DNA from: Liolophura sinensis
Taxonomy: Eukaryota; Mollusca; Polyplacophora; Chitonida; Chitonidae
Length of the DNA stretch: 64,000 bases
Assembly (NCBI RefSeq): GCF_032854445.1
Contig: NC_088302.1
Coordinates: 54,654,046-54,718,045, forward strand
Direction of reading: 5' to 3'
This document shows, in pieces, positions 33,174 to 53,877 of this stretch. Both the position numbers and the translations under genes were made by a program. How positions within the stretch are numbered: the stretch's first letter is position 1; every line of letters begins with the position of its first letter. The notes beneath the pieces are model-generated. The model ran no database searches. It was not told the origin of the DNA and saw only the letters and a list, made by a program, of their open reading frames with translations.

Positions 33174-33312
33174 TCACTTGCGACGTTTGCGCTCCTCCCG
33201 ACGTTTACGTCTAGCTTCTTTCTCCTCGGGACTCCTATCCTTCTTTTTGTCTCTGTCCTTCTTCTTTTTCTTCTTCTTTTTACTCGAGTCTGAGCCTTTT
33301 CTGCACAAAAGA
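33174..33312 (-). CDS. WSC gene exon 14: Cys-rich juxtamembrane and Lys/Arg-rich cytoplasmic tail
   Basis: The acceptor TCTTCCAG|TCTTTTG joins to give CLLCRKGSDSS, then eight lysines, then DRDKKKDRSPEEKEARRKRR and EERKRRK, stop. The two membrane-proximal Cys could be palmitoylated, and the polybasic tail could bind acidic lipids or act as a sorting signal; both are inference. A nearer AG (GTGCAG|AAAAG) would create an immediate stop after the membrane span, so the upstream acceptor was chosen. Confidence 0.83.
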
Positions 33313-35272
33313 CTGGAAGAGACGGTAATAAAAAAAATGGGTAAAAAGCTTGAAGATTTCCTCTGCCGAAAATATAAAAAAATGAAATATTAAGTCGTCT
33401 CATTCTAACAATATTAATACCAAGCCGCTTCCAAAAAAATGTAAAAAACGTGTGCGGCATATTATTACATAGCGATAAATATCAATACATGGAATATATA
33501 TATAGCACAGATCGATAATGATTACATTTTTGAGCGCCTGTATATGTATAATATTACTTAATTGCACCTTCCCTCTACCATTTATATTGCTGATTTCTTA
33601 ATTCTTTTAGCATAAATCCTTCCGAATTTCTTGCTTTAGATTTACTGCCTTGTTTTCTCGGTGTTGTAACACTGAAGTTACTCTCCAAGAACTGCAGTGT
33701 ATGCGTGCTACACAGTATATATTGTGGCAAATATAATTCTGTTCACAAGCAAGTCATGTATGTACCACAAATATACATCACGTTATGGATGTGCAGATTT
33801 GAACACAGTCGTTTTTAAGGAGTACCATTAATTTATTTCATTAGTATCGTATGCCGTACTCAAGGATATTTCACTTTGACAACGACGGCCAGCATTATGG
33901 TGGATTAGAGAGTATCAAGCATGTTGTATATGGATGAGGCTTACCATATGACGACGATGGCTAAAATAATAACTCCGACAGCCAAACCCCCAATTTTCAT
34001 AACAACGTCATTACTCATTCCGATAAACCCACCATCGTCTCCTACAAGAGATAATTACATATACGATAATGCTCAGTAATGAATATTCATAACTACAAGT
34101 AGGTTTTACTTTACCCATAAATCCTTGCACGGAGATAAAGACGGCTGAAATGTCAATCACGATGCATGTAACGCTTACCAGGTATGACGAAATCGTCTTC
34201 ATTTTCAACGATAATGTCTCCTGCAAAATAATGATAATAATAATAATAAGCAAAAACAAAACAAAACGTAAATGGTAAAATGAAAACGAAAACTTTTCTT
34301 ACTAACTGAACTAGTTTGGTCAGGTTTCACCTCACATAGCGGTGATCCCAGATATCCAGTGAATCGTTGTGGTTAGACTCAAATACTTTAGATCCATTCT
34401 TCATTCAGAATTAAATTGTTTTACATGCAGACTACGTTTGTCAATTCCACTATCATCCCTCATGTAAGATGCTACATATATAATGATGAATATTGCCCGC
34501 AGATATGGAAATAGCTTAGTCCCATCACTGTGGTACTCACATGACCAAATTTATCCGTTGAGACTTTCGTTCATTCCAAAAATGGAATTGTTTGCTATTT
34601 CCACATGCTAATGCAGTGGTATAGCTTACATGTGCACATATTGTAAAGTAAGGCCAAATCCGACACAGCCGTGTGGACAACAGCTAAAGAGCGAGGGGCT
34701 TGCGCTATATGTCCCAGGGGACCCGTCTACATGTGGAATTTACCTCCATGTACGACAAAGCTCACTCCTTTCGCTATCTAATAAAGAATCCGCATTATAC
34801 ATATACACAAGCTTTATTACCATTTTAATACTATACATCGGACAATGTAGAGATTGTTATTATTTGAGAGGTTATAAAATTTAATTTGATTAGCTCTTAT
34901 CTACTTTTTCTTCATAATCTGTGATTACACCATCTCTAATATTGTATGATTTAATACATTATTCATTCAAACGCTATATCAAGTAAAAGATCGACTGTTC
35001 ATTTATCTCCTTCAAATAAAGGAGTTTTACATGTGCCTAACCAGTGTAAAAATTTTGTGATCGTTTCTCACGCGTGCCTCTGAAATGTTTCATATCAAAC
35101 CATATATAAAGCGTCATACCAATTTAAGGGCACACCTCTCTATATTGACGTCATCCCCGAAACTTACAAAGCATTGTGGGATACAGAGTGCAGCAAGAGG
35201 TATGTCTAATACGCTCTTAGCAAGGTGAATTGGATATCCAATTTAGCACAGTTTTGTGCAAGCACAGGTTTG

Positions 35273-35305
<33 letters not shown>

Positions 35306-38300
35306 CCTATAACAAAACTCTGCTTGTCTCCACCGAAGCGTAATCAGTTTCCATTAAAGCTATGCACCACATTCCCCATGACTTCAAGGCAGGTTTGACA
35401 TTTTTCCATGTCTTATATACTTACTTCCTCGTTTTAATCAACTTACCCCATTCTAACGCCATGATTCATTGAGCATACGTCACTGTACAATAATAGCAGA
35501 TAAAATAAAAAGGGCAAACACGCAATAGCTGCGTCATCTCCTGTATGGGATTTATTGTTGTCCACTCAGATCCTTCGTTAAATGAATGGTCCTTATTAAA
35601 GTATTGGAGGGTTAGGAGAGGATGTCAAAAGTTCCACAGACAGAGAGAAGCAGCCAGTGAGAAGGCCATAAACGACTGGCGTTTTCGTGTAATACAAAAG
35701 AAAAGGCGAGGCTGTGACACGTGCATCCCCTTATTCAACAGGATACAACTTACCCTGTGTTTTTTTTCTCAACAGAATTTGTGCAGGTGCTTGGACCATA
35801 TCTGCCAGAATATGTAAAGTGACTAATTTCAACGAAATATATAGTTAGTAAACATTATGAAAGTATGAAGAATAACTAACCTTCTTTCTGCTCCACATCC
35901 TCTGAAATAAAAAGAATACAACAGGTGCAGAAATATATGCTGTAACAGTACAGGTTGCACAGTGCAGGCTTAGTGCAGAGATAACTATGAGAGATGCATA
36001 CAGAACGCTCTGCAAAGATACTACATTATTATCAGCTGAAAACTGATTTTTTACGTTCCATTTACATTATTTCTCACTCACATACGGGATTCTACACGGT
36101 GTATGCGTTTGGAATCATTTCTGTGACAAATTTGTAATGGGGCAATTTCATCGAAATGTACTTGTATATAGACTGGGAATATAATGGATGGAGAGTACGA
36201 TGGATAGGGAATATCATGAAAAGATTTACTGGCCTTCCATCTCTGGCATTCCCTCTAAAATCAAATAAATAAAAGTTTGCCTCATAACAATCTAAAAGAT
36301 TCGCTTGTGAGAGATCAATAAGTATTCTATGCCTTACTAGCTGTAGCGGAAGATGTTCTCCTACAATGTGCACCTGGTACAGAAAATGTTCTACTGTGGT
36401 GTATGCTTGATTCAGTTGAAACAGAACGGTTTCTACTGCAGTATATGGTTGTTGCAGTTGTAACAGAACAGATTCTACCGCAGTATATACATGAGTGCAG
36501 ATGTAACAGAACAGGTTCTCATACAATGAGCTCTTGGTACAGAAAATGTTCCACTGTGGCGTATGCTTGATTCAGCTATAACAGAACGGTTTCTACTGCA
36601 GCATATGGTTGTTGCAGCTGTAACAGAACAGATTCTACCGCAGTATATAATGGGTGCAGATGTAAGAGAACAGGTACTTTTACAGATTATGCTTGGTACA
36701 GGTTTGATAGAACAGGCTCTACTGGGGTGTATGCTTGGTTCAGCTGTAACAGAACAGACTCTACTGCTGTTTATGCTTGGTTCAGCTGTAACAGAACAGG
36801 CTCTACTACGGTTTATGCTTGGTTCGGCCGTAACAGAACAGGCTCTACTGCGGTTTATGCTTGGTTCAGCTGTAACAGAACACGCTCTACTGCGGTTTAT
36901 GCTTGCCTCAGAAGTAACAGAACAGGCTCTACTGCGGTGTATCGTTGATGCAGAGATAACCATGTCAAAGACACCGATACCGTAACGCAAAGAAACTATG
37001 CTTTGGGAGCTTTGAACACGGTGCTTTGAAATGGCTGCCCCATGCAGTGCCATGCTTATATACATCTGCTGATACAGGAATGTATATATAGGTTGAACGA
37101 AATATCTGTGTCTACTCACCTTCATCGGTATCAATGCTGGGTGGACTCTCGGCCACTGAAACAGCAGATGAAGGACAGGAATACTTAGCCTATTGTCAAT
37201 AATGAGCTATAGAAGAACTACAGCCATGTCTTCCTAGACAAACATAAATTATTTATTTATTTATTTGATTGGTGTTTTACGCCGTACTCAAGAATATTTC
37301 ACTTATACGACGACGGCCAGCATTATGGTGGGAGGAAACCGGGCAGAGCCCGGGGGAAACCCACGACCATCCGCAGGTTGATGACAGACCTTCCCACGTA
37401 CGCAAACATAAATGCACAGCCCTTGAGGGCATATGTACGCTTCTTCCTTCCCACAGAAAATATATTTGCTCCTAAATCTCAGTGACTGTTTAAATTTGCT
37501 AGTGCAATGAGATTAAGTGGGATCACAGCCATTTACAGTGCAGTATAGTAAGATCCTGCATATATATATACTATTCCCATACTAAATCTTCGCTTACCCC
37601 TCCGGGTCTTACCGTAAATCTACGTTTATCGAAGATATGAATCAACAACATTATATTTTATGTTATATATTAGACTAATAAAAGTTCGTGATAACGAACC
37701 ATAGAAGTAGCCTACTTACTTGTTTCCTTCGGAGCTGGAGCCGGAGCCGGAGTAACTGTTGCCAAAGAGGGAATCAACATACATGTTTTAAAGCCATTAT
37801 CATGTGTAAACATACGTTCTGACAATGTTCTATAGACAGGAATGGTCAACAGTTGAAGGACGGTACAAACAGAAACCTGGAAAGATATATCTCCTTACAT
37901 TGGGACGGCATTTATATCATTTTCCGTTTATTGCACGGATCCCAGCCAGCGATACTGACGTCCTGACTGGCCAAGGAAGCCACCAAAACGGGTCAAGTAT
38001 AGAAAGTGTTGATCAAATGTGTAATGTATTGATCATCTTTGATCATCATTGATCATCATAAATATCGACGATATAGCGACGATGTTGATACATTTCAGTT
38101 CAGATATATACTATCCAAAAAAAGAAACGCATAACCCGGTTTTTTGCGGAGGTGGTGCAGTCTTTTCAATTATGCATAACTAAATAAGAATTGCTATTCT
38201 GCAAATATTTTTTTACACAGATTAAGGAAGGGTCCATATCTAGACAACAAGGCCATCAACTTGAGGTAAGACACTCACAATGAGTCTCCCACTTGAGTGG

Positions 38301-41300
38301 AAAGTCAGTATCTGTTGTGACCACCACGGGCACGAATAACAGTTCTGACACGCCTTGTCATGGACTGGATGAGACGCTGGATAGAGGCCTGGGGAATGTT
38401 CTGCCACTCCTCCTGCAAACATGCAACTTGCTCTTGAAGCGTTTGGGGTTGAGGTTGACGTTGGCGTAGACGTCGATCAAGTTCATCCCACAAATGCTCA
38501 ATTCGGTTAAGATCCGGGGAACGGGACGGCCAGGGTAGCACATTTACATTGTTTTCGGCGAGGAAGTCCCTTGTGACACGTGCCGTGTGCGGTCTGGCGT
38601 TGTCCTGCTGGAACAACTCCCGTTGAACGTCAATGACAGGTAAGAGGTGTGGCTGCAGGATGGTGTCTCGGTAGCGTACAGCCGTAAGATTTCCCTGAAC
38701 GTGGACAAGATTTGTACGACCAGTATACGATATTGCTGCCCACATCATCACACTCCCTCCACCAAATCTGTCCACTTGGCGTACGCAGTTAGGGGCATAA
38801 CGTTCGTGAGCACGTCTGTAAACCCGGTTTCTACCATCACGTCTCTGCAATAGGAATCTGGACTCATCACTGAACCAAATGCGTCGCCACTTGAGTAGAT
38901 TCCATGCAGTCACGTTGTTACACCATCGGAGGCGATTGGCGCGATGGTGAGGACGCAGCACGATCCCAACACAGGGCCTCCTGGCTCTCAGTCCATGTTC
39001 CCTCAGCCTGTTCCGCACTGTCTGACCTGATATCCTCCTCAGTCCCGGTATGCTGGCTGCTGTGCTTTCAGCTGTAGCACAATGGTCACGCAAATGGAGG
39101 ACCCTTATGTAGCGATCTTGGGCTGCTGTAGTGACACGTGGTCGACCTGAACACCGACGGTCATTTGCTGTCCCAGTATTGTTGTAGCGGGCAGCAAGCC
39201 GTGAAATCGTGCTCTGGCTGACGTGTAGACGCCTAGAAATGGACGATTGGGACTCTCCAGCTTGAAGTCTTCCAATGGCAATATTTCTTGTGACAGTGTC
39301 AAGACGTGGCATGTTGAATCAGCTTGAAAACACCACTTGAAAGACGCCGATTTCCGGCCCGAAGTTGCGGTTTCATAGTCTCACACTGCAGGCTTTCCAT
39401 GCGTAAGTTCGGCGTGTAAGATTGCACGTGATGCAGTGTGGTGCTGTATTTTTTACTTCTTCCAAAAACGGCCTCAAAACTCAAGATTTTCAACCAAGAA
39501 ATGTTTTGAGGAATAAAATGTGTGCTAACTGTGACTATTAACAATATTAAAACACAGTTTGCTCATGAAATGAAGACAAAATGTATTTATTTCATTTTAA
39601 AATAAAACAAAACACCTATGCGTTTCTTTTTTTGGATAGTATAGTTTGGTTGGGCTGATTTTTACATTTAGAAATACAGTAGAATCCTTGAAAGTGAAAA
39701 AAAAACACTCTGATAATATTTCACGTAAAAGGCAAATGGGTGCTTACCTTTTATCTTCACGACCCTCGGAGCTGGTGTCGTTACTGCGAAAGACAAAACA
39801 AACAGAGTAAAGCAAAACGGTTATCAAAAGTAAACACGTTTTGATAATGTTCTAAGAGCAAATTGTTAAGTAAGTAAAGGAAAACAGAAGTAGAAACCAA
39901 CGACGCTATGATATTGGGGTAATTTGAACTAATTTACAGTATCATTGATAACTCCGGTTGAATTAAGCGGATCTCACATATCCTAACCATTATCATTCGA
40001 GTTCGCCTTGGCCCATAAAACCCAAGAACAAAGCAAGGATTACATACATAGTATTTATACTTCCTCTGAAGACTTCGATGACAACCTGCCAATGACAGCA
40101 CGGTTGGTCAGCCAATCATGTCTCCCTTAAACCCACCAGCAAAGCCAAGCCAAGCCAAAATCAAGCGTCATAAACGACATTCGTCTACAAATTGTTCATA
40201 TCTGACAGTCGGCTCTATAAACATTTCTAAAGACAAGTGACACTAATCGCCCAGGAGGATATACAAAATCAGCTCAAGGGACATACGCTTCAACCACAGC
40301 TCCAATCTCTATATAGTATATTCTTGTGACTGCTTAGCAGTCGTCTCACCCCAGATTACCTAATAGTTGTGGATTTGCCTTGAAGACGGAGGCGGTAAAA
40401 GCACCACCGCAAACTTTCAGTTTTGTGTCCTTCGAACACGTTGATGTACAGTCCGCATTCGTAAACGGCCTGTGATTTTTATGTTTCTGACACGTGCATA
40501 TACCCCTGAAATACGAAAAGAATACTTTGTATAAATTTAACCATATAGTATACCATACATTACCCACCCATCACCCCAAACATTTACCCACCCTGAATGC
40601 CAAACATATACCCACTAAGAATCTCAACATTTACCCACCCAGAATCCCAGCATTTCCCACCCAGAATCCCAAACATTTACCCACCCAGAATTTCAAACAT
40701 TTACCCACCCAGAATTCCAACATTTACCCACCCAGAATCCCAACATTTACCCACCCTGAATACCAAACATTCACTAACCTGGACTCTCAACCATCAACGT
40801 AGAATTCCGTACATTAATCGCCCAGAATCCCAAACATTTAGCCAGGATCCCAAACAACAACCCAACCAGGATACCAAACATTTACCCACAAAGAATCCCA
40901 ACATTTACCCAGCCAGGATCCCGAACATTCACCCACCCAGGATAACAAACATTTACCCACCCAGGATTCCGAACATTTACTCACACAGGACCCCGAACAT
41001 TTACCCCCAAAGAATCACAACACCCACCCGTAATTACGAACATTTACCCACACAGGATCCCGAACATTTACCACAAAGAATTCCAATATCTACCCACCCA
41101 TGATCACAAACATTTACCCACCCAGGATCACAAACATTTACCCACCCAGGATCACAAACATTTACCCACCCAGGATCACAAACATTTACCCACCCAGGAT
41201 CACAAACATTTACCCACCCAGGATCACAAACATTTAGCCACACAGGATCACAAACATTTACCCACACAGGATCACAAACATTTACCCACCCAGGATCACA

Positions 41301-44300
41301 AACATTTACCCACACAGGATCACAAACATTTACCCACCCAGGATCAGAATTTAATTTAATTCTTTATTTATTTAACGAGGATTTCTCACAGCCTAATGGC
41401 TACTACGGAGATCTCCTCAAAGCATCAATTAACAGCATAATAGCTAACGAAGTACTTATACATAAATATGGGAATATATATTTCAGATAACGGAATATAA
41501 GTTGAAATAAATTAATTATTATTTACAATGTTAACATCGTTATTACCATTACCATGGTCATAAAATCTTTCTGTGTCATTGATAAATTTATGTACACATT
41601 GAAAAACAAGTTTATTATCTTCGTAATTTAGATCTTTAGAGCCAAGCAAAAGTATATTACATATATATCGTGAACATTGTGGAATAAAAACAACATAATT
41701 TACACCAGGTGAAATAATTTGTGTGAGGGTATGTAGCATGTGCTTCCTATGAGTGGCAAGTTGAGAGCAAATAAAAAAAAATGAAAGGTATCTTCACATG
41801 TATTATTACAGTAATGGCAAGTAGTATCTTCAATAATACTATACTTAAAAAGGTCTGCCCGAAGAGCACTGAGTCCCATTCTCGTTCTGCAGTGCTGGGC
41901 AGATGAAAAGTTGCTAAAGTCATTATATAACGACATTAAATCACTAGACGTGTAGTAATAATTGGTGAAGATAGAAATTTTTGAAGTTCTTTAATTGAAG
42001 AATGGCGAATATGTTTAGGTAAATTATTCCAGTCCAAAGTTGTTTTCGGGAGGAAGGAAGATTTGTACATACTGAGGCGGCATCTAAATATACGTAAATT
42101 TTCACTATACCTTAACTTATATGTATTATACTCTGTTGATCGTCTTGGTAATAGGGACTGTAGGTAAGGTGGGGAAAGCCCATTTACAATTTTAAAAAAT
42201 AGCAGAATCCTATGTTGTCTACGCCGAACATATAGTGGTGTCCAATTATGTTCACTCAGCAGAACTTTATCTGATGTACGACGCATACCACTTGTACAAA
42301 GCAAAGCTTCGCGCCGTTGAACATCTTCCAGTTTTTGGGGAAGCGCAATACTACAGTTATCATATAATATGTCGCCATACTCTATTGTAGATCTAATGAG
42401 GCTATTATGTAAGGTTATTAAACACTTCCTTGTTAATATCCTCTTCACTCTATTTATAATACCTAATTTCTTATTACATATTTTTACGAGTAATCTTATA
42501 TGTTCGTCCCATTTACCATCGTGCTGTAGAATGATACCAAGGTGTTTATGGTTCTGAACGCTCTTCACTGCAATACCATCTAAATACAGTTTTGGGTACA
42601 TTGGGTTCTTTTTTAAGGAAACAAGTAAGTATACAGCTTTCTGTGCATTAAATGTTATCAGCCACTGTTTGGCCCATTGTAACAAGCGACCTACATCTCG
42701 ATTTATTTTATTTTCAGATGTAATAAACTCAGTCATCTCTTCGGACAAAGATGTATCATCAGCAAAAATATTGATATTATATTCAATGTTCACATTTATG
42801 TCATTTACAAAAATCAGGAAAAGAAGCGTTCCTAGAACAGAGCCTTGTGGAACTCCACTTTGAATAGAATATATGTCTGAATCAACTCCGTTTAAACAAG
42901 CTTAATTTTTCTATCAGATAAATAATTCTTAATCGATGTCAGTAATGGGTCCCCAACACCAAACTGTCTCAACTTAAACAAAAGACCCTCATGTCAGACG
43001 TTATCAAAAGCCTTGCTTACATCTAGGAAAACTAAACACGTATCATTACCACTGTCCAGACTTCTGTATGCATCGTGTACAATTTTAGTTAACTGACATA
43101 TTGTCGAGTCGCCACGTTTAAATCCAGAATTATTCGATATTAGAAGGTTATGGTTAATACAATATTCATACAAGTGCTTATATACTACTTTTTCCATCAC
43201 TTTAGAGAGAGAGGGCTGTGAAGAAACTGGTCTGTAACCTTGACATATCATGTCTATCTCCTTTTTCAAAGACAGGGCATACTCTAGATAGTTTCCAAGC
43301 TGATGGAAAGACTCCTGACTGAAGTGAGAAATTAAATAGTTTAGTGAGACAAGGTGCTATATTTTCCGCTGTATTACTGAGCATGAAATTACTAATTCCA
43401 TCGGCACCAAAAGCTTTCCTAATATTTAGTTTGGACAGAAAATCAGCTACTTCCCTTTCATTTGTTTGTATACAACTAAGGCGTGCAGCAATATAATAGG
43501 TCAATGGAGGTAAAACTGGTATTACTGACGGAAGAGCTGAATGGCTTACAAAAATCTAACGAACTCATTAAGCTTTTCAGTATCACTTGATACATTTTTA
43601 TCGTTAACAATTAAAGAAGGAACAGGTGGTTTCGCTTTTGAACCCATCAGAGATTTCATTATAGACCAATAAAACTTGGTATCTTTAGTTTTTCACCATA
43701 TCTTAATATTGCTTTTCTCTTAGTGGTATTAGCTTCACGCCAAGATAAATAAAATCGAAATCTGTCTTCCTCAGACTTACTCCTCTTAAATTTTTTAAAA
43801 CATCTATTTCTTATACTTAATTTATAATGACCATCATTTGTCATCCATGGTTTATCCCTTGGTCGTATTATCACTTGCTTATTTGGTAGTGCATCCGCAC
43901 AACAAGATAAGAAAAGATTGTTCCAAACATACAGTTTATCATCCATATCATCCAATATGTCACACAAGGACAGGGAGTGTTAGAGATAACTGACTGAAGC
44001 TGTATTAAGTCAGCACATTTAAAATCCCATATGTGTCTTTTATATGCTTTTGGTTTATTATTTACCAGAATATTTAAGGTACAATATACAGAACAGTGGT
44101 CAAGATTGACCACTGGCGAAGCTACTCCATATTCAGTTACATAACCGATACTATCTGTTATGATTAAATCTAAAATATATGAAGTTCCATTGCTATATCT
44201 CGTGGGCTCATTAATTACCTGAAATAAATTTTTACTTGTAATAATATCAAACAACTTCATTTTTAGTTCACTCTTATCGTGGTATTTGGACCAATCAACA

Positions 44301-47300
44301 CACCTATCATTAAAACCACCCATAATTATCAAGGCGTCTGGATTTTCAGTCAGTGCTGAGTTGACTAGAAGTTAACTAGAAACTCATCCTGTGTTTGTGA
44401 AGACTGGTTCGGGGGACGATAGCCAACGGAACAAAATATATGTTTATTATTTATTTATTTGATTGTTGTTTTACACCGTACTCAAGAATATTTCACTTAT
44501 ACGACGGCGGCCAGCATTATGGTGGGAGGAAACCGGGCAGAGCCCGGGGAAAACCCACGACCATCCGCAGGTTGTTGTCAGACCTTCCCACTTACGGCTG
44601 GAGAGGAAGCCAGCATGAGCTGGACTTGAACTCACAGCGACCGTATATGTTTATTAGACTGTTTGATTGAAATCCATAACATTTCATAGTCATTTTCTAA
44701 ATCCCCTCTACGCATAGCACTAAATGATGACTTATAATAAATCGCTACTCCACCCCCACGACGGTCTCTATCTTTGCGTTCTATACAGTATCCATTTAGG
44801 TTCACTATTTCATCGGGTATATCAGAACTAAGCCAGGTTTCTGAGGCACATATAACATCATAATTATATCGCTTACATAACAAGGTGTAGGCCTCGTCCA
44901 GAGGAGAGGTTGTCCTTACTTTGAGCAAGTAAGCTCCGAGCATTAAAGTGACAAATTTTTTAATTATGCTGATATGACGGCCATGGATTTACATGTATGT
45001 CTCCACATCTAAGTAATAAAGTCATATGTATAGTTAAAAAGTAATGTTGATTACAGAGCGTAGAAAGAACAGCAATAATAGACCAAGACATGAACTCTGT
45101 GCTATAATTGCTCAGCAAAGATGCTCGTAAATCTTCAGTAACATTCGATTTTTTTCATAATATAAAAAATTATTCCATGCCCCAGTTGCCACCCTATACT
45201 GATTTAAGTCACCCATGATGTATATAGGGATAGGTATAAAGGAAGCACATGCTCGGAAACTCCACTAACCATGGTAGGGAATATCATTAGTTTATAAGTA
45301 TTTAATGGACCTAATTTCACGAGTTGATTAACTTCTAATCTATAACGATAATTAACATAAGATATACATATTTCACATGTACTTGTAAGTAAATGTGGTA
45401 TTAAGTTAATTATCTGACGTATTAAACAGTATAACATGAGTGACCACCAGGAAGTATCGAGGAATAGTAATTGGTATAGTTATCAGAAACATTCACATAG
45501 CATACAAAGATGAGGAATGTAAGGGTGAGGAAATACTTACAGTTAGCCTTCCAGAGCGCAATGTGTTATTACATGATCATAAATCTAGTGTTTAGCTTAT
45601 CAGAACCGTGATCAGGCACCAATTGGTTAATGTCATTGCTGTTTACAATGATGAATAGATACAAGTTGGTGAACACATATACATGCATTTGGTTCTATCT
45701 ATACACTACGAAAAATAGTCGTAGAAAATATGAACAACTGTATCGATATACATGTACTTGAAATCAGGATTGGAGAATGGATTTTATTAGAAGAGCCAGT
45801 ATATTTATAATAGAGGCCATTGATACACATGCATTGGCATTTGCACGGGCTATTTAGTGCATCAGAAACATTTAACCACCCAGGATCCCGAACATTTACC
45901 CACTAAGAATCCCAACATTTACCCACCCAGAATCCCAAATATTTACCGAACCAGAATCCCAACATTTACCCTCCAAAAATCCCACATGATCCGAAACACT
46001 TACCCACCCAGGATCCCAAACATTTACCCACCCAGAATCCCAAATATTTACCCACCCAGAATCCCAACATTTACCCTCCAAAAATCCCACATGATCCGAA
46101 ACACTTACCCACCCAGGACCCTAAACATTTACCCACCCAGAATCCCAAATATTTACCCACCCAGAATCCCAACATTTACCCACCCAGAATCCCAAACATT
46201 TACCCTCCAAAAATCCCACATGATCCGAAACACTTACCCACCCAGGATCCTAAACATTTACCCACCCAGAATCCCAACATTTACCCACCCAGAATCCCAA
46301 ACATTTACCCTCCAAAAATCCCACATGATCCGAAACACTTACCCACCCAGGATCCCAAACATTTACCCACTAAGAATCACAACATTTACCCTCCAAAAAC
46401 CCCACTTGATCCGAAACACTTACCCACCCTGAATCCCAAATATGACCAATCGAAGAAGTTTAAATAGTTCTTTTTTCTTTACCATTGTAATTTCTTTACA
46501 CGATCATGTATTTGTTGATATTGTCATCATAGGAATGGAAATCTATATAAGCAATGAGAAACTTTGATCATGTAATACCAATACAGTCGTGCATCAGACA
46601 ATGCGAATATGAGTTGACAATATTGTCACATGTGATTACAAATACACAATAACACCTCGCTTCTTCTATAGTATTCCATGACAGGTTCATCTCTCCAACC
46701 TGCCTACTACCAGAAATGTTTCCACTGGAAATTTCCATGATAAAAAAAGAGAGAGAGAGAGGAAAAAAAAACAATGATACCAAACAACAACAACCCCCAC
46801 CCCCCTCAAAAAAATCAATAAGGAAAGGAAATAAATGGCACAAATCTTTTTCATGTATATGTAATACCGTACCCTTTTTGGATGGCAGCAAATGGGTGAT
46901 TGTTGCGGTGACAGATATTAATACACTCAACAGGGGAAGCGGACATGTCAAACACATGTGTGAAGGCAAACTTCCGGTTATGCAATGCCTGGTCGTTGTT
47001 AAGGAACAAGGAATAGCATTTAAATGCAGCTGGAAGAAAAAAACAAAAAACAGACATCCCATTTATTTATTTATTTATTTATTTATTATTTTATTTAACT
47101 TTTTAAAATTTTTATTTATACACCAGTATGAATTTGATATTTTTAATGCCCTACTCAGAAACGACAGATGTGAGTTTTATGTGGACTGAGAGCGGAACTT
47201 CCCATAGATAACCACAATCAAACCATAATCAAGTACCCATCCGAGCTAACTGAATTCGAACGTCACAAGGGCAATCGACTGGAGTGTAAACATTTTAGGC

Positions 47301-49060
47301 GGGCGAGTCAGAGACATATACAACTTTCCCTCTCCCCAACGCTATCTATAACGTCCTAAATAACAGTACAAAAGAATCCCCCAGCAGGGCACAAATTTGG
47401 ATATAAACTTATGGCAGAAGGTGAGATACATGATTATATGTTGTTCTAGCCTTTCACAACTATGTCAACAGATCTGAGCTACAATCAATATAGGCCTACA
47501 TGTATTTTGTTTCCACAGATTTTAGAGTCGTGGAATGGTGAAAATCTTATCCCTCTATATCACTTTAATTTGGCCATGAATGTATTCATCTTGTCCCTGC
47601 GTTATAGTGTCGAGCATATACAAATTATATGTAAACAGTGTGCAAATGGCATTATGTGACAGACCTAAGTCTGAGAATGAATGTTAATTAACCGGGTGTC
47701 GGATCACCAAAACCCGAAAGTGACTGTATCTTCTTCGCAATTCATGTTGGAGACATGGAAGCAACATGCTCTGATATATCCCAAAACTCGGAACCAGAAG
47801 TAATTTAACAGGAAGTGACGTTGTCTTAACCAGAAATGCCAGCTTGGATCCCGTCATCGCTGCTTTAGCAACTACATTTAATACTGATATTCTTAGTTGT
47901 CATTGCAGCAAATCGTGATATCTAGAGATCTATCACGACAGACACGTAATTTCACAACATCTGACCAATGACGCACGCACAGTTGAAAAGTAATAGTTTA
48001 TGGTTTTATTGTTTTCTCTTTTACTTTTTGTTAATACTTTCTTCTTCTTTAGGCTGTGTGCTCTTTTATACGCACTCTTCTGTGGAAAGTGTCAACTCAC
48101 TAATATGTTAACTAGTTGTCTTTCGAAATCCTTACGAATGTTGAGCACACAGAACATTTAGGCCTTGGTAGATCTTGGAGTTTCGGTTATGAACCGATAT
48201 TTGGCAATGTTTTTTTTTAGAGTTTTTGCTTTGTTCCCTAATTTTTACATGAAATATATACATTATTGAATTCATCAAAACTATAAAATATAACATGTGC
48301 TCGCCAATGCATGGACAGCTATAATGTTGTTCCTGTCGCGTAAAAACCACGATGGGACCATTCCAGGTCGAGCCACGTCTGACACATGAATTAAGCTGTA
48401 GGTTCAAATCAAACTACATTTAGTTCCTGCTTGTCCGCCAGGATGTAAGTCGGGCACAGGCCCAGATGCGGAGGCCTTCTGTCAGGGGGTCAGCCAAGGA
48501 CGGGCCCAGGTGCGGAGGCCTTCCGTCAAAGGGTCAGCCAAGCACGGGCCCAGGTGCGGAGGCCTTCCGTTAGGAGGTCACCCAGGCGCAGGCCCAGTGC
48601 GGAGGCCTTCCCAGAGCTGCGTTCCAGGTCTTGCACACATACAAATCTGACTGCAGTCGTATAAACGAAATGTTCTTCAGTATAGCGCAAAATCGTCAAT
48701 CAAAGTGATAAATTAAAAGCTATTTAAATAATCACAACGAACTCTAAAAATTTAATGCCGATTATAAATTCAAATAGTACGAGAGTTAACTGTGTTGATG
48801 GACAAAAATAATCAGGTAATAAAAAAAATATTTTCAAACAATCATTAAAGAGGGCAATATGCTTATATTGTCCGATATATAATCAGACTACATAGATGTA
48901 TATACGCATTCATATGAAGGTTGTACTTTCTACAAATTTATACTACAATACTGTGTATACTATGTTTTCATGGCACAGTTATTCAATATCTTGACTAAAG
49001 ACCAGCAATTGGAAGAATGACATAATATTTGTGAACATGACACCTGCAAGTTATTATTAT

Positions 49061-49091
<31 letters not shown>

Positions 49092-52000
49092 TGATTGTTC
49101 TATTACGCCGTACTCAAAAATATATCACTTAAACAACGTTAGTCAGCATTATGGTGGAGGAAGCCGGGCAGATCTCGGAGGAAAACCACGACCATCCGTC
49201 CGCCCTGCAAGTTGAATTATCTGCGAGTTACACTACATATACATCTAATCAACGTGTGCCGATGATACATACTGGTACTTAGGAGAGGTCCCAAACTTCC
49301 TTTTGAATTATACTTGGAGGGATCTATCAATGAATTTCCACACAGACAAACCGAATACGGCAAGTCTACGCAAAACATTTTGTCCACACAGTCTCTGGTC
49401 ACTGGAACCTGATAGTTATCATTGAAGTTGCTCGTCTGCTTGCAGCCACAACGTTGCCTGCAAGAGAGGACCATATACAGTTTGAACAGTCCAATTTGTC
49501 AACTACAGCAACCTTAATGCAGTCTGGATGCAACCATAGACTCAATTCACAAGCTGATTTCGTTCCCGTCTAAAATTATAGTTCAAGTTAAGGGATACAG
49601 TTTCCACTGCTGATGATGTGATAGGATATCAGACTTTCAACAAACAGTTGCATATATTTTGTTTTGTACTGGTTTGGACTTTATACCAAAATGTGAATTT
49701 ATGAAAAGCAAAGATCTTTAACAAACTTTGTACAAGGTCAACTTACGTATATATAAACGCAAAGTAGCGGGTTCCTTTGTTAATGCAGTGCTGATATCTA
49801 CATTTTTCAGTCCTTTTGTTCTCTCCTTCTGGGTACAGTTCTTTCCAGTGCTCCCTGCTAACATCTGCACAATCGTAACCTGAAACGCAAATCAATTAAA
49901 ATGTTATAAATATCACTGACATTTTTCAAGTTGTAAAAGGACTTAATACACGTTAGCTGCTCATGGATTGTCGACGGCATGACCTTGCACCAATAACCTC
50001 ACAAAAAACTTTTTATTTTTGCCTAGCAGCAATGAAAGACAGAGTCTCCTGAGCGACTAGAACCTATATTACCATGATAGGGGGAGAGTATTTTTAACTC
50101 AAGGAACGATGACGAAGTTTTCGTATGTTGCAGATAATCCTAATCATCAATTGTTGATCTCTGTCTGTTATGGATTTTTAAAACTTAAAAGAAGCTTCAA
50201 AGAATAAATATGTAACATTTTGAGAAGAGAGGAGAGGTGTGGCGAAACGAGAAGGGGATTCAAGTCCGCAAAGGAGAGTTCTAGCAGCATGATTGAGCAG
50301 TCTTTTTATTTGTGTATTAATTTGATTGGTGTTTTACGCCGTACTCAAGAATATTTCACTTACACGACGGCAACCAGCATTGTGGTGGGAGGAAACCAGG
50401 CAGAGCCCGGGGAAACCCACGACCATCTGCAGGTTGCTGGCAGACCTTCTCACGTACGGCCGGAGATGAAGCCACTATCACCTGGACTTGAACTCACAAC
50501 CACCGCATTGGTGAGATGCCTCTGGGTGATTGCGCCGTGCTGGCGTGCTAACCCCCTCGGGCACGGAGGGCCCCAGCAGCCTTTTTGAAAAGCGTTATAC
50601 TCCGGGTCGCTTAAAACTTTAGTGTTACTTTTAACAGTGCAGCACACCACGATGAGTGATTGCATTTCCAAAAATTTTTGTATCTGATCAGTTTTATCAA
50701 GTGTTAATGTTTCAACAATCTTTAAAGGTGTTCATATTCCAAGTGCATTAAAGGTATTAATTTTTAAAACTTTGTCAAGTGTATGTTTAAGGTGTTGACG
50801 ACTTATAAAAAACGATAATTATTTGTAGACAGTGGTTACTCAACATTTGGGATATGCCTAACAAGATTCACGTCTGCATCATGTTGGCTACACTTGAGTT
50901 AGTAGACCAGTTGGTCTGATTTCAATATTATTTGACCGGCCCGGATAGTTGGTAGAGCGTCCGCTTCGGGACCGGTAGATCCAGGATCAATGCTTGATCG
51001 AGTCACACCTAAGACTTTAAAAGAGGAAGTTGTAACTTCCTCGCTTGGCGTTCAGCATGAAGGGGATAGTGCAACGACTGGTTGACCCGTATCAGTATAA
51101 TGGCTCGGGCGGGGCGGCTTGCTTGCCTTCGGTAAGTCGTCTCAGTGAGGCAGCACTAAATAAAAGAGCGGTGGAAATCCGTCCTGCAACAAGGAGGCAC
51201 ATTACACGTACATGTACCCTAATGATTCCTTCGTCGTCATATGACTGAAAAATTGTTTGAGAACGACGTTAAACCCCAAGCACTCACTCACTCAATATTA
51301 TTTCCTTACGATATACATGAGTTTGCGTATAACGTTATGGTATCAAGGGAATTGTTTTTGTAGTAACTTTCGGCAAATTTAAGCACAGATCTATTCTGGA
51401 GTTCTCCTTTGAAAGAAAAATGTTACCTTTATTATCCACTGGCTTAGCTACGTTCCGCACAAACTTGACAGCAGCTTTTAGAGCTGCCTGAAAATAGTTC
51501 TTTTCACCGGCTCCATAGCAATCGCACACAGGGGGCTCTATCCATCGACATACTATTGCGCAGTTACCCTCACCAGGTCTCATAGGGCTACCGCAGCCAC
51601 ACCATCGCCTGAGGAACAACAAAAACAGGGGATAAGATTGCACGTTTACTTTTCAACCGAGTGGGAATGTCATGTCTGGTGATTTCAGCTTTTGTGACAC
51701 AGCTTACACGGGCCAACACGCCGGGAATTGGTTTCAAATTAACTATCTGGCCTGCTGATTTCAGCTTTTGTGACACAGCTTACACGGGCCAACACGCCGG
51801 GAATTGGTTTCAAATTAACTATCTGGCCTGCTGATTTCAGCTTTTGTGACACAGCTTACACGGGCCAACACGCCGGGAATTGGTTTCAAATTAACTATCT
51901 GGCCAGCATCATCATTAACAATAAGCGGCCCACAAATAAACCACACAATTTTTAATGTTATTTGTTTAATATCAAGACGATGTTGTGCCCTGCATTCCCG

Positions 52001-53877
52001 CCAACGCCCAACCCCGAAATAATGATCAACCCAATGTTTTCACCTAAGCAACCAAACAAATGAAAATGATCAGTCCACGCTTTTTGAACTGACTTAATCA
52101 TCGCAATCATATAATTTCCACCTGATGAATATATCTCTTGCTGATTTTAAGTCCGAGCATATTTTTTTTGTCTTTCGAGCAACGACAAAGAGCAATAATC
52201 AGCGATTTCAGTTTGCTCGCTGAGTTCAAAATCTTTAACGAATGGATGGTCACTCACAATTTCTAAGAATCGCTCAGCAACAATACCGCGGTTGTTCAGT
52301 GCCCCGCGTGAGCTCAATTGCTCAGGTCGCAGGGTATATTTTGTAAAACACATGGTTCAGGACATTAGTCTTCAATCTTAATGTAAATATAGTTTAAGAC
52401 TTACCCTCCGGCAATGACTAACTTATCCGTTCCAGCTTTCTGACAACGGCTCCAACATTCTTCTGTTGGTTTGTATGGCAAACCTTTGTGAACGACGCGG
52501 TCGGTACCGAAACAACCTACATAAGCTGCAAAAAGGAGGAGTAAGTGATCATACTTTTGAGAATCTACAACAAATAACAAGTATTCCGGAGGTATTGCTC
52601 TAGCAATACATGCCCCCATTATCCATAACTTGTTATGGGAAAGCCACATACAACGTTTCAATTCAATATAATATAAAATATCGCGGACTGATAGACGAGG
52701 GGTAAACTAATCAAAACTTGTAGTCTTCTCCGGGTAACCACTAGGGAATAATCAGTAACATTTTCATTCTGCATAACCCAAGAGACAGTAGAATTGGTGA
52801 CAAATAAAATTTTGCCCAAATGAAAGGTATATAAATATTACTCAGGCATATGCTTCAGATACCATTTTCAAATCAAGTCAACACAATTTTTCAGTTTTTC
52901 CATATCTCACAGTTTTATTTTCAGTGCAAATATTTATTTAATCAATCCACAGATTGTCCCTCAAAGAATTTCACTTTCTTGTTAAGATTGTTTCAGTTTT
53001 CACAAAAATATAATGTTGCTTTAACATATAAGTAAAACAAGTTTGTTAACAATTTTTACATATAAATTTTTTTTTTTTTTTTTGATTGGTGTTTTACGCC
53101 GTACTCAAGAATATTTCACTTATACGACGGCGGCCAGCATTATGGTGGGTGGAAACCCACGACCATCCGCAGGTTGCTACCAGACCTTCTCACGTACGGC
53201 CGGAGAGGAAGCCAGCATGAGCTCACAGCGACCGCATTGGTGAGAGACTCCTGGGTCATTACGCTGCGCTAGCGCTTTAACCGACTGAGCCACGGAGGCC
53301 CCCCATATAAATTTAAGACAGTGTCTTAAAACTTTCAAAGAAAATGTTGATCTCCTTGTTTGCTTCAGTTCTAACGCCTCCTTTCAACCTATTTTCCGTC
53401 GCAAAGTATATCAAGAGGTCATCAGTTTCATTTCCTATTCCGGTAAAGACCAACTTTACTTGTGAATGATAGCTTATAGAGATATAATGATCTTTAAAAA
53501 ATATTAATAGTATTTCTTCAAAATTTTCTATTTTTGTTTTCATTAAAAAAAAGAGTGGAAAATCGACAATAACCTTAGGCGTATAAAGTGAACACACAGT
53601 AAGCTGGGAGAGTTCTATGCCGTCATATCCCAGATAATCACTACATATACAAGGATCTCGCTGACTCGGACAACTAAGCCTCTGGCACACAACACGACTC
53701 GCAGGCCCTCCACCTATCAGGTCAAAACAAGCTCTCGCTAACTGGCCACATTTAAAGATGTTAAGGCAGATGCATGTTGCATGCTCTACGGTACTTACCA
53801 TTGCCCAGTGAGGCGAAGACTCTTGTACACATGATGTGTCCCATGAGAAGTACAAACAAGAACTGCAGAACAGCCAT
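33174..53877 (-). CDS. Type I membrane protein with three WSC-like modules, 14 coding exons
   Basis: Exons (minus, 5' to 3'): 53799-53877, 52405-52525, 51427-51608, 49747-49879, 49273-49457, 46873-47029, 40360-40505, 39748-39783, 37720-37755, 37120-37155, 35881-35901, 34179-34220, 33945-34041, 33174-33312. They sum to 1410 nt, 469 residues plus stop; every junction keeps frame with GT/AG borders. Order: signal peptide (1-26), WSC-like modules (about 28-105, 128-225, 234-330), stalk (335-405), membrane span (408-427), basic tail (428-469). Module 3 is canonical (KCYS, MSASPVECINIC, GGICTC, CTSTC, KVCGG). WSC domains occur in yeast wall-stress sensors, Kremen and polycystin-1 and are thought to bind glycans, so a cell-surface receptor or adhesion role is inferred. 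The exon model is mine and untested by transcripts. Confidence 0.87.
33850..33903 (-). mobile_element. SINE 3'-core fragment in WSC-gene intron 13
   Basis: Contains ATGCCGTACTCAAGGATATT and CGACGGCCAGCATTATGGTG, the 3' core of the tRNA-headed SINE family, only about 40 bp from the exon 13 donor. The head and tail are missing. Confidence 0.85.
33945..34041 (-). CDS. WSC gene exon 13: transmembrane segment
   Basis: Encodes DDGGFIGMSNDVV followed by MKIGGLAVGVIILAIVVI, a single hydrophobic span. It begins in phase 1 and ends in phase 2 (ATATG|GTAAGC), joining to the tail exon to make a Cys codon. Confidence 0.87.
34179..39783 (-). CDS. WSC gene exons 8-12: five stalk microexons
   Basis: Lengths are 36 (39748-39783), 36 (37720-37755), 36 (37120-37155), 21 (35881-35901) and 42 nt (34179-34220). 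All start and end in phase 1 and have good splice sites. They encode TTPAPRVVKIK, TPAPAPAPKET, AESPPSIDTDE, DVEQKE and DIIVENEDDFVIP, with a split codon at each junction. The stalk therefore moves from Thr/Pro-rich to acidic. Each exon can be left out without changing frame. Confidence 0.83.
35275..35303. repeat. (TA)n microsatellite in WSC-gene intron 11
   Basis: About 14 TA dinucleotides followed by TAGGCCTA. Confidence 0.95.
36343..36958. repeat. 42-bp minisatellite in WSC-gene intron 10
   Basis: The unit contains TGCTTGGTTCAGCTGTAACA and GAACAGGCTCTACTGCGGTT; spacing is 42-45 bp and copies at the left are diverged. A 42-bp unit keeps frames open on both strands (14-residue repeats such as ALLRFMLGSAVTEQ), which explains the apparent long open frames here. 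Confidence 0.95.
37250..37402 (-). mobile_element. 5'-truncated SINE with 11-bp target-site duplication
   Basis: The family 3' core and tail (CACCAATCAAATAAATAAAT on the minus strand) are present, and the tRNA-like head is missing. It is flanked by CAAACATAAAT at 37239-37249 and 37403-37413. It sits in WSC-gene intron 9. Confidence 0.95.
38107..39643 (-). mobile_element. Complete Tc1-like DNA transposon
   Basis: Perfect 27-bp terminal inverted repeats (TATACTATCCAAAAAAAGAA ACGCATA) lie at 38107-38133 and 39617-39643. The outermost TA pair on each side is the expected TA target duplication, which makes the element about 1.53 kb. It contains one intact transposase gene and sits in intron 8 of the WSC gene, in the same orientation, ending 105 bp from exon 8. 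Confidence 0.97.
38305..39312 (-). CDS. Tc1-like transposase, DD34E, intact
   Basis: A single uninterrupted 335-residue reading frame, the usual length for Tc1-like transposases. The N-terminal part (about 1-110) is a paired-type helix-turn-helix DNA-binding region, with SQSSISRRLHVSQSTISRLA and a GRPR linker. The catalytic part shows WFSDESRF (first Asp), LFQQDNARPHTA (second Asp) and SPDLNRIEHLWDELDR (Glu). I count 34 residues between the second Asp and the Glu, hence DD34E. The enzyme would cut at the inverted repeats and reinsert at TA. All catalytic residues are present, so the copy could be active or only recently silenced. Confidence 0.97.
   Translation of the reverse strand: MPRLDTVTRNIAIGRLQAGESQSSISRRLHVSQSTISRLAARYNNTGTANDRRCSGRPRVTTAAQDRYIRVLHLRDHCATAESTAASIPGLRRISGQTVRNRLREHGLRARRPCVGIVLRPHHRANRLRWCNNVTAWNLLKWRRIWFSDESRFLLQRRDGRNRVYRRAHERYAPNCVRQVDRFGGGSVMMWAAISYTGRTNLVHVQGNLTAVRYRDTILQPHLLPVIDVQRELFQQDNARPHTARVTRDFLAENNVNVLPWPSRSPDLNRIEHLWDELDRRLRQRQPQPQTLQEQVACLQEEWQNIPQASIQRLIQSMTRRVRTVIRARGGHNRY
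40360..47029 (-). CDS. WSC gene exons 6-7: canonical WSC module 3, split by a 6.4-kb intron
   Basis: Exon 6 (46873-47029) carries FKCYSLFLNNDQAL, DMSASPVECINICHRNN and FAAIQK. Exon 7 (40360-40505) carries GGICTCQKH, ADCTSTCSKD and KVCGGAFTASVF. Together these follow the WSC pattern closely. The acceptor of exon 6 has a long pyrimidine tract ending TTCTTCCAG. The intron between them holds a split 24-bp minisatellite, a LINE and a nested SINE. Confidence 0.86.
40572..41349. repeat. 24-bp minisatellite, left part of a split array
   Basis: The unit is GGATCACAAACATTTACCCA CCCA (24 bp). Copies are diverged on the left (CAGAATCCCAACATTTACCC) and almost identical from 41090 to 41349. It stops in mid-unit at the LINE and resumes at 45861. 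Confidence 0.96.
41512..41935 (-). pseudogene. LINE C-terminal Cys/His segment
   Basis: Carries HCRTRMGLSALRADLFKYSI and TTCHYCNNTCEDTFHFFLF. This is the C-terminal Cys-Cys-His module found after the reverse transcriptase in many CR1/Jockey-like elements. It is in a different frame from the reverse transcriptase block, so it is also disrupted. Confidence 0.8.
41936..43504 (-). pseudogene. LINE reverse transcriptase domain, broken
   Basis: In order on the minus strand: KAFGADGISNFML and VFPSAWKLSRVCPVFEKGDR; frameshift; YRPVSSQPSLSKVMEKVVYK, SGFKRGDST and FLDVSKAFDNV (motif A), followed by a stop where the family usually has Trp; then SGVPQGSVLGTLLFLIFVND and NIFADDTSLS (motif C). Next come HLGIILQHDGKWDEH and the thumb and C-terminal region with SPPYLQSLLP and TLDWNNLPKHIR. 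Several frameshifts and stops make it non-functional. Confidence 0.93.
43871..45035 (-). pseudogene. LINE apurinic-type endonuclease domain, broken
   Basis: The segment begins with LLLRCGDIHVNPWP, a decayed form of the (G)D(I/V)ExNPGP signature often found before this domain, then FNARSLLAQSK. After a frameshift come DVICASETWLSSDIP and DRRGGGVAIYYKSS. The SINE at 44450-44643 interrupts the domain between SNKHI and CSVGYRPPN. Then come IIMGGFND, where the family usually has GDFN, so a catalytic Asp appears lost, and LDLIITD and LDHCSV. In-frame stops lie before NARSL and after YRPPN. Confidence 0.88.
44450..44643 (-). mobile_element. SINE nested in the LINE, 13-bp target-site duplication
   Basis: tRNA-headed SINE family, with its 5' end cut within the head after the B-box-like region. 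It is flanked by TATATGTTTATTA at 44437-44449 and 44644-44656. Removing it restores continuous LINE endonuclease sequence. Confidence 0.97.
45861..46445. repeat. 24-bp minisatellite, right part of the split array
   Basis: Same family as 40572-41349 (GAATCCCAACATTTACCCAC). Here a longer pattern of roughly 100-130 bp also recurs, marked by the insert CTCCAAAAATCCCACATGAT at about 45973, 46077, 46206, 46312 and 46393. Confidence 0.95.
48456..48611. repeat. 44-bp GC-rich tandem repeat, about 3.5 copies
   Basis: The unit contains GGGCCCAGGTGCGGAGGCCT TCCGT and GGTCAGCCAAG. It is unusually GC-rich for this window and lies in WSC-gene intron 5. Confidence 0.93.
49055..49090. repeat. (TA)n-rich microsatellite
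   Basis: Short TTATTATTA then (TA)n run, directly adjoining the tail side of the minus-strand SINE at 49091-49215. Confidence 0.9.
49091..49215 (-). mobile_element. Diverged, 5'-truncated SINE in WSC-gene intron 5
   Basis: Contains TTACGCCGTACTCAAAAATA, CAGCATTATGGTGGAGGAAG and CCACGACCATCCG of the tRNA-headed SINE family. It lacks the head, is more diverged than other copies, and ends 58 bp from exon 5. Confidence 0.88.
49273..49879 (-). CDS. WSC gene exons 4-5: WSC-like module 2
   Basis: Exon 4 (49747-49879) carries YDCADVSREHW, KCRYQHC and GTRYFAFIYT. Exon 5 (49273-49457) carries QRCGCKQ, DCVDKMFC and VCLCGN. The internal intron is phase 2 before CGC and the outer introns are phase 1, as in modules 1 and 3. 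The terminal CGG is changed to CLCG. The exon 5 donor chosen is A|GTATGT; an earlier GTACCA gives the same phase. Confidence 0.84.
50308..50574 (-). mobile_element. Full-length tRNA-headed SINE
   Basis: The complete family member reads on the minus strand from GGGGCCCTCCGTGCCCGAGG (head), through the B-box-like GTGAGTTCAAGTCCAG and the core, to the CACCAATCAAATTAATACAC tail. The flanks AGCAG(T/C)CTTTTT at 50296-50307 and 50575-50586 form a 12-bp target duplication with one difference. It lies in WSC-gene intron 3. Confidence 0.94.
50934..51291 (+). mobile_element. Second SINE family, full length, 12-bp target-site duplication
   Basis: The tRNA-like head has GGCCCGGATAGTTGGTAGAG CG (A-box-like) and CTTGATCGAGTCACACC (B-box-like). 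A unique body follows, and the tail reads GACGTTAAACCCCAAGCACT CACTCAC. It is flanked by TCAATATTATTT at 50922-50933 and 51292-51303. The tail is shared with the element at 29664-29930. It lies in WSC-gene intron 3. Confidence 0.94.
51427..52525 (-). CDS. WSC gene exons 2-3: WSC-like module 1
   Basis: Exon 2 (52405-52525) carries AYVGCFGTDRVV and EECWSRCQKAG. Exon 3 (51427-51608) carries RWCGCGSP, NCAIVC and VCDCYGAG. The usual C-terminal CGG is replaced by CDC. The two exons meet at a phase-2 intron just before the CGC motif, and the outer introns are phase 1. After the module, exon 3 adds an Ala/Lys-rich linker. Confidence 0.85.
51681..51904. repeat. 76-bp tandem triplication in WSC-gene intron 2
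   Basis: Three nearly identical copies starting GATTTCAGCTTTTGTGACAC at 51681, 51757 and 51833. The array lies about 70 bp upstream (minus strand) of the exon 3 acceptor. Confidence 0.97.
53070..53303 (-). mobile_element. SINE with 11-bp target-site duplication, small internal deletions
   Basis: Full head (GGGGCCTCCGTGGCTCAGTC GGTTA) through to a long A tail on the minus strand. It lacks the GGGCAGAGCCCGGGG segment and a few bases near the B box. It is flanked by CATATAAATTT at 53059-53069 and 53304-53314. It lies in WSC-gene intron 1. Confidence 0.96.
53799..53877 (-). CDS. WSC gene exon 1: signal peptide
   Basis: Encodes MAVLQFLFVLLMGHIMCTRV and six further residues (FASLGN). The hydrophobic core FLFVLLMGHIM is typical of a secretory signal peptide, with likely cleavage near Phe-Ala-Ser. 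The donor is ATG|GTAAGTAC and the phase is 1. This exon fixes the start of the protein. Confidence 0.87.

Follow-up and report, generated by a model that had tools for sequence, protein, structure and literature searches.

A chiton gene reading as a type I membrane protein with three WSC-like modules, and its three paralogous blocks in the genome of Liolophura sinensis

The stalk of the yeast Wsc proteins is rich in Ser/Thr. In the accessible portion of the work on yeast Wsc1 (PMC9024836), the cysteines of the WSC domain are spaced 21,3,15,1,14,3,7, with C53, C69 and C71 corresponding to Cys III, IV and V, and Tyr 70 lies between Cys IV and Cys V. The Kremen proteins consist of three domains of ~10 kDa, a linker of ~70 residues, a membrane span and a tail of 60-75 residues, and the disulfides of Kremen1 yield a cysteine spacing of 24,3,15,1,16,3,7, with C151, C167 and C169 as III-IV-V (PMC5014086, in its accessible sections). 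An intron inside the WSC domain of Xenopus Kremen2 is in phase 0 (PMC3927609, likewise in the part available). WSC3 of the fungus Serendipita indica possesses three WSC domains and binds long-chain beta-1,3-glucan, according to the available text of PMC7816849, and the glycerotoxin of Glycera is a secreted lophotrochozoan protein with two WSC domains (PMC5336659, from the portion consulted). Further mentions in the accessible parts of the literature are a transcript from Mytilus gill that bears the name WSC domain-containing protein 2 (PMC4581086), a sea cucumber gene table (PMC12784826) and a review of sea anemone toxins that appears among the matches for the WSC domain (PMC6627431). No description of a three-WSC plan in an animal was found in the open-access literature among the matches listed, the wider ones being represented by their title and the start of the abstract. 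The remark of the earlier note on this DNA, that it knew of no named animal protein with exactly this plan, is not contradicted by those matches.

The window, that is the whole stretch of 64,000 nucleotides analysed here (C8:54654046-54718045), belongs to a 609-Mb, 632-contig assembly, which was searched throughout; the genome paper reports 632 scaffolds and 609.5 Mb for Liolophura sinensis, along with RNA-seq from digestive gland, foot, gill, gonad and heart (PMC11068029, in the part available). The genome was first published under the name Liolophura japonica, which was later corrected to Liolophura sinensis (PMC12441733). For every candidate exon the open frames and the possible AG and GT borders were listed, and the gene was built by joining them. 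Rebuilt from the sequence in this way, it extends over 53877-33174 of the minus strand, all of its internal borders are GT/AG and there is not a single phase conflict. The earlier note had proposed a complete gene of 14 exons; the 14 exons, the GT/AG borders and a product of exactly 469 residues were reproduced, but a fifteenth in-phase exon (35801-35754) had been omitted, with which the protein comprises 485 residues. This added exon (48 nt, phase 1-1) has a combined splice score of 15.1, equal to that of exon 8 and higher than those of exons 9 and 10, and is counted as exon 12 in the following.

Exon 1 (53799..53877, minus strand, as are all the exons of this gene) contains the start codon and encodes the hydrophobic N-terminus, a predicted signal peptide (MAVLQFLFVLLMGHIMC...), with phase 1 at its end. 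The ectodomain modules are each split over two exons: WSC-like module 1 over exon 2 (52405..52525; 121 nt, phase 1 to 2) and exon 3 (51427..51608; 182 nt, phase 2 to 1), WSC-like module 2 over exon 4 (49747..49879; 133 nt, phase 1 to 2) and exon 5 (49273..49457; 185 nt, phase 2 to 1), and WSC module 3 over exon 6 (46873..47029; 157 nt, phase 1 to 2) and exon 7 (40360..40505; 146 nt, phase 2 to 1). Six short stalk exons follow, and after these the membrane span in exon 14 (33945..34041; 97 nt, phase 1 to 2) and a polybasic cytoplasmic tail with the stop codon in exon 15 (33174..33312).

Several repeats lie between these exons. Intron 8 harbors a frame of 335 residues for a Tc1/mariner-type transposase (38305..39312, minus strand; Pfam DDE_3, 5.1e-14), which is an insertion and not part of the gene. 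A second insertion, in intron 6, consists of broken LINE-like fragments (41936..44943, minus strand), in which Exo_endo_phos is found within 44632-44943 at 24.5 bits, a score at the cut-off; the reverse-transcriptase-like frames were judged by eye, 41936-42793 having no Pfam match up to E 0.01. Intron 10 includes a minisatellite of 42-base units (36339-37000) that carries long open frames in either direction and is probably not coding, and in intron 2, near exon 3, a 76-base unit is present in three nearly identical copies (51676-51907). A dispersed repeat whose core reads GCCGTACTCAAGAATATTTCACTT occurs six times (at 33827, 37255, 44449, 49081, 50312 and 53072); the copies are 70-86% identical to the first, and every one falls within an intron of the window gene (1, 3, 5, 6, 9 and 14). 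Elsewhere in the window, a 242-residue frame on the minus strand (25375-26103) with a partial PDZ domain (Pfam 6.5e-5, just above the cut-off) probably represents an exon of a neighbouring gene.

Searching the genome with the ectodomain returned 22 matches up to E 10, namely the gene's own exons, a cluster at 84.389-84.411 Mb of contig C1, and weak single matches on C6 and C2. From a 40-kb cut of C1, another chromosome, three further three-module blocks (A, B and C) could be read, adjacent to one another. All 18 of their module exons are readable in the phase series of the window gene, 1-2-1-2-1-2-1. The borders were picked by eye with the window phases as a guide, and the phase agreement is to this extent a fit that was looked for; independent of the choice of borders are the fact that all 18 exons are free of stop codons and bounded by an in-phase GT/AG border, and the agreement in length. 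Over the four copies the second exon is always 121 nt, the third 182 nt in the window and 188 nt in the other three, the fourth 133 nt in the window and 130, 133 and 133 nt in the others, the fifth 185 nt and the sixth 157 nt throughout, and the seventh 137 to 146 nt (146 nt in the window; 146, 143 and 137 nt in the others). The donor that the earlier note had chosen for exon 5 is supported, because a 185-nt exon can be read at this place in all three paralogous blocks. The three blocks are 32.7, 35.9 and 31.9% identical to the window copy and 38.4 to 44.4% identical among themselves; nonetheless all 26 ectodomain cysteines (nine in module 1, nine in module 2 and eight in module 3) are invariant in the four copies. 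At this level of protein identity the synonymous changes are expected to be saturated.

As the three-module block is present three more times in the genome, the window gene lies far beyond chance, and on this comparison of sequences we conclude that it is a real, functional chiton gene. It may well be present, nameless, in the published genome annotation. That it should be a product of chance joins, or a dead gene, we regard as practically negligible: AATAAA is absent within 1500 nt after the stop codon (a single ATTAAA is found at 1196), and this lack of a close polyadenylation signal would fit such a reading, against which three paralogous blocks have kept every ectodomain cysteine and are readable in the same splice phases.

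Genome searches with blocks B and C (E up to 1) disclosed no fifth copy; these searches proceed exon by exon and score the best candidates only, and a distant copy could be missed. Two further WSC genes of the genome show a weak match to block B (E 0.016 and 0.053). A search of the whole genome with the Pfam WSC profile led to four places, none of them in the three-module family, which was missed because introns split its modules and was found only with the protein.

The ends of the paralogous blocks are less easily read. Block B offers a 91-nt span exon that runs from phase 1 to phase 2, as in the window gene, and tops the list of candidates that fit in phase; above it ranked a longer hydrophobic frame whose phase is different. 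Two weaker span candidates, with a hydropathy of 1.53, exist for block A. A third one (C1:84394411-84394504) was rejected as a repeat, a like sequence with 74% identity and a stop codon being found at C1:84383584-84383652. None of three candidates in the 28.7 kb downstream of block C was convincing. Candidate signal exons were noted for block C (84408650-84408722) and, weakly, for block A (84382042-84382126), neither of them being the highest in its own list, as higher ones were passed over by eye. For block B the sole candidates for a signal exon are the frame of exon A8. Blocks A and B (C1:84389322-84397403) are 1.8 kb apart and compatible in phase, and because no convincing span follows A and no signal exon precedes B, the two may constitute one gene, which would encode a six-module protein with a doubled head. 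Directly beyond these blocks lies a tandem array of an ~83-base unit (C1:84397405-84397970), made up of seven copies of the end of block B exon 7 plus the bases that follow it; the length of this unit is not divisible by three.

Module 3 is firmly identified by profile matches as a WSC domain. The window copy reaches 34.4 bits against Pfam WSC (PF01822; cut-off 27.8), and all four copies match at E up to 1, the best at 3.8e-10. A profile of the four copies of module 3 retrieves the WSC domain of Kremen1 in a structure search (E 2e-4, among six matches), whereas a search with the single sequence gives Kremen1 only at E 0.7-0.8, ranked below a proteasome chain. Modules 1 and 2 score 14.7 and 16.4 bits, under the cut-off, with two of the four copies of each matching at E up to 1. 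When the whole protein from the window is searched at a threshold of E 10, three Pfam WSC stretches are obtained; blocks A, B and C give one stretch each (E up to 0.1). The profile of module 1 found yeast Wsc1 (7PZ2) at E 0.1 as its sole match up to E 10, and that of module 2 found no WSC structure. A match of the latter profile to ASH1L (E 4.9) was rejected. The earlier note had named WSC matches in exons 2-3, 4-5 and 6-7 as the support to look for; this was obtained above the Pfam cut-off for exons 6-7, while exons 2-3 and 4-5 remained below it.

For the cysteine pattern we took as a criterion the eight cysteines of two solved structures, Kremen1 and Wsc1. The order I; II, III; IV-x-V; VI, VII; VIII and a III-IV distance of 15 residues are found in all three modules, the spacings being 18,3,15,1,10,3,7 in module 1, 22,4,15,1,17,5,7 in module 2 and 30,3,15,1,13,3,8 in module 3. 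Modules 1 and 2 each have one extra, ninth cysteine, which is conserved, and module 2 deviates at II-III and VI-VII, where it has 4 and 5 residues and the structures have 3. Comparison of the module profiles with one another by hhalign gave single-comparison E values of 0.0014 to 0.0032, yet probabilities of just 10-17%; profiles whose columns were shuffled around fixed cysteine columns reached the observed score of the module pairs in 2/60, 0/60 and 0/60 cases. In a tree of the 12 modules these are sorted by position and not by gene (two changes, the minimum). The groups of modules 1 and 3 are well supported; that of module 2 is weak (28/39), and two long branches were flagged. As the modules group by position, the triplication would be older than the gene copies. 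We conclude that modules 1 and 2 are probably divergent WSC modules, and that the same two-exon unit appears to have been repeated before the genes were copied; the WSC identity of these two modules rests on the cysteine spacing, the shared splice phases and weak profile scores.

The position of the intron within the modules was compared with that in the other WSC domains of the chiton genome, of which four exceed the Pfam cut-off. In three of the four there is no intron between Cys III and Cys V, and in the fourth an exon seems to begin ~12 residues ahead of Cys IV. One more locus (L017, on C6; E 0.36) lacked the WSC pattern on reading and was dropped, so that four of the five loci read were used for this comparison. 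In this small sample the three-module family seems to be marked by an intron immediately ahead of Cys IV. Some of the other WSC genes of the genome are, we presume from their flanking sequence, polycystin-1-like.

Between module 3 and the membrane span the window gene has a stalk that is encoded by six mini-exons, each starting and ending in phase 1. Splice weights were trained on 25 donors and 24 acceptors (window exons 1-7 and the 18 paralogue exons) and employed in a scan for mini-exons of phase 1-1. Exon 8 (39748..39783; 36 nt) scores 15.1, exon 9 (37720..37755; 36 nt) 10.8, the weakest of the set, exon 10 (37120..37155; 36 nt) 14.1, exon 11 (35881..35901; 21 nt) 18.2, and exon 13 (34179..34220; 42 nt), which is acidic, 16.2; exon 12 (35754..35801), the one left out in the earlier note, may be optional. 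The 6.3-kb stalk stretch contains 16 candidates, five of which, namely exons 11, 13, 8, 12 and 10, score at least 14.1, compared to three of 21 candidates in 28.6 kb of control stretches (two of six on the other strand, and none of four and one of eleven in the others). Exon 9 ranks tenth of the 16, and by reason of this rank and its score it is the least certain exon. Over 88 residues the stalk consists of 10% Ser/Thr, 11% Pro and 20% Asp/Glu. Blocks A, B and C offered no firm counterparts of the window stalk exons; acidic exons of blocks A and C are loosely alike (E about 0.2), and their likeness to window exon 13 was judged by eye.

Hydropathy reaches its maximum (3.13) at residues 424-442, with the N-terminus as the second peak, and the basic tail follows the span. 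Exon 14 is the best of six candidate span exons on the minus strand of the window; the plus strand has one candidate. The codon at the junction of exons 14 and 15 can be read as TG|T, and the same holds in block B. Of the 46 residues of the tail, 26 are Lys or Arg, for which seven codons are used (AAG 9, AAA 7, AGA 3, CGT 3, CGC 2, AGG 1 and CGG 1), a variety that speaks against a simple repeat. The polybasic tail is seen in the window copy only: block B has a tail of 42 residues with a short basic stretch followed by an acidic one, and no tail was identified for A or C. Among the 10 matches in a search of the genome with the tail alone, two were the gene itself and the others, at E 0.007 or worse, were taken as reflecting basic composition. 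A match of span and tail to FAM176 (E 7.6e-4; 19.7 bits against a cut-off of 31.5) was rejected on the same grounds of composition.

It might be argued that exons 1-7 form one gene and that stalk, span and tail have been misjoined to it, the true product being secreted or provided with another C-terminus. The tiny size of the stalk exons, the poor score of exon 9 and the failure to find a span for blocks A and C would agree with this. We think it decidedly unlikely, given that exon 14 leads the six span candidates, that its phases equal those of the span exon of block B, and that five mini-exons of such score within 6.3 kb stand against three in 28.6 kb of control. The signal peptide, three WSC-like modules, stalk, single span and polybasic tail read by the earlier note all hold when examined by hydropathy, cysteine plan and composition, and the hydropathy profile, with a signal peptide, one span and positive charges inside, is that of a type I membrane protein.

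From these features we surmise, with a probability of roughly 60%, that the gene product is a receptor or lectin at the cell surface, of type I topology, whose multivalent head of WSC modules sits on a stalk made from mini-exons that can be skipped; a single span follows and, in the window copy, a tail rich in basic residues. Each module would adopt a PAN/Apple-like WSC fold, with the disulfide pairing of Kremen1 and Wsc1 (I-VI, II-IV, III-V and VII-VIII). The cysteine parity (9, 9, 8) and the full conservation of these residues suggest that the extra cysteines of modules 1 and 2 either pair with each other, which would lock both modules together, or form a bond between chains. All six stalk exons being in phase 1-1, any of them could be skipped without a frameshift, and splicing could in this manner alter the length of the stalk. 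Probable partners of the basic tail are adaptors or acidic lipids of the membrane.

The ligand of the array of modules would be some repeated surface structure that is bound multivalently; a glycan, for instance a beta-glucan, seems likeliest, the alternative being a protein. The tandem plan leads us to favour glycan binding of the ectodomain by a small margin, a weak preference by analogy. Its precedents are fungal; the animal WSC structure considered here, that of Kremen1, binds a protein. The modules could bind a protein partner in the way in which the Kremen WSC domain binds Dickkopf, making the chiton protein a signalling receptor or co-receptor and not a lectin, and we hold this to be a serious possibility, albeit short of an even chance. 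Among solved structures, Kremen1 is nearest to module 3 and contacts DKK1 through its Kringle and WSC domains (PMC5014086, in its accessible part), the layout of three domains of ~10 kDa, linker, span and tail is similar, and the Tyr that lies between Cys IV and Cys V of yeast Wsc1 is missing here; on the other hand, the protein has neither a Kringle nor a CUB domain, there being no Pfam match to either up to E 10. Returning to the surface receptor or lectin, a more specific version would make it a member of an undescribed family of animal receptors, in which three WSC modules, the first and second locked by cysteines, form a rigid multivalent glycan sensor whose stalk length is set by the skipping of mini-exons. 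As a whole this version appears doubtful to us.

The animal WSC proteins compared here, Kremen and glycerotoxin, have one or two WSC domains amid other domains. Four three-WSC copies in one mollusc, fixed in exon plan and cysteines, offer a clean system in which to ask if animal WSC modules bind glycans like the fungal ones do. The locus is also a worked example of a hand-read gene model that was checked from paralogues alone.

The WSC domain is known, and the three-module arrangement seems to be new. Within the same chiton genome, the other WSC genes exceed the Pfam cut-off but are without an intron directly before Cys IV. Glycerotoxin differs from the chiton protein in also possessing EGF and CCP domains, and is a large venom protein whose C-terminal end has no known domain. 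The WSC3 lectin of S. indica shares the number of WSC domains; it is fungal, and was compared with the chiton protein by domain count.

The yeast sensors of the Wsc1 type share the order of signal peptide, WSC, stalk, one span and tail, but have one WSC module as opposed to three, and the chiton stalk is not Ser/Thr-rich. The likeness to these sensors drawn in the earlier note is borne out in the order of the parts; beyond this it is superficial, the stalk having 10% Ser/Thr, the tail presumably being different, and the position of Wsc1 Y70 being occupied by Gly, Thr or Ala in all chiton modules. In module 3, all four copies retain an aromatic residue nine positions after Cys VIII; the remaining positions were assessed solely by their offset. 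An animal counterpart of the yeast mechanosensors, which would sense surface tension via an extended stalk, is in our opinion highly improbable: the identical order of parts and the weak similarity of module 1 to Wsc1 (E 0.1) would suit it, yet the low Ser/Thr content of the stalk and the want of an aromatic residue at the Y70 position do not, and animals have no cell wall. The layout of Kremen is at least as close to the chiton protein as that of yeast Wsc. Kremen1/2 are type I proteins with three ectodomain modules of ~10 kDa, a linker, a span and a tail, and have the same III-IV-V cysteine spacing as module 3; they differ in the phase of the WSC intron (0 in Xenopus Kremen2, 2 in the chiton modules) and in the modules themselves, which are Kringle-WSC-CUB in Kremen, whereas the chiton protein combines three WSC-like modules with a basic tail.
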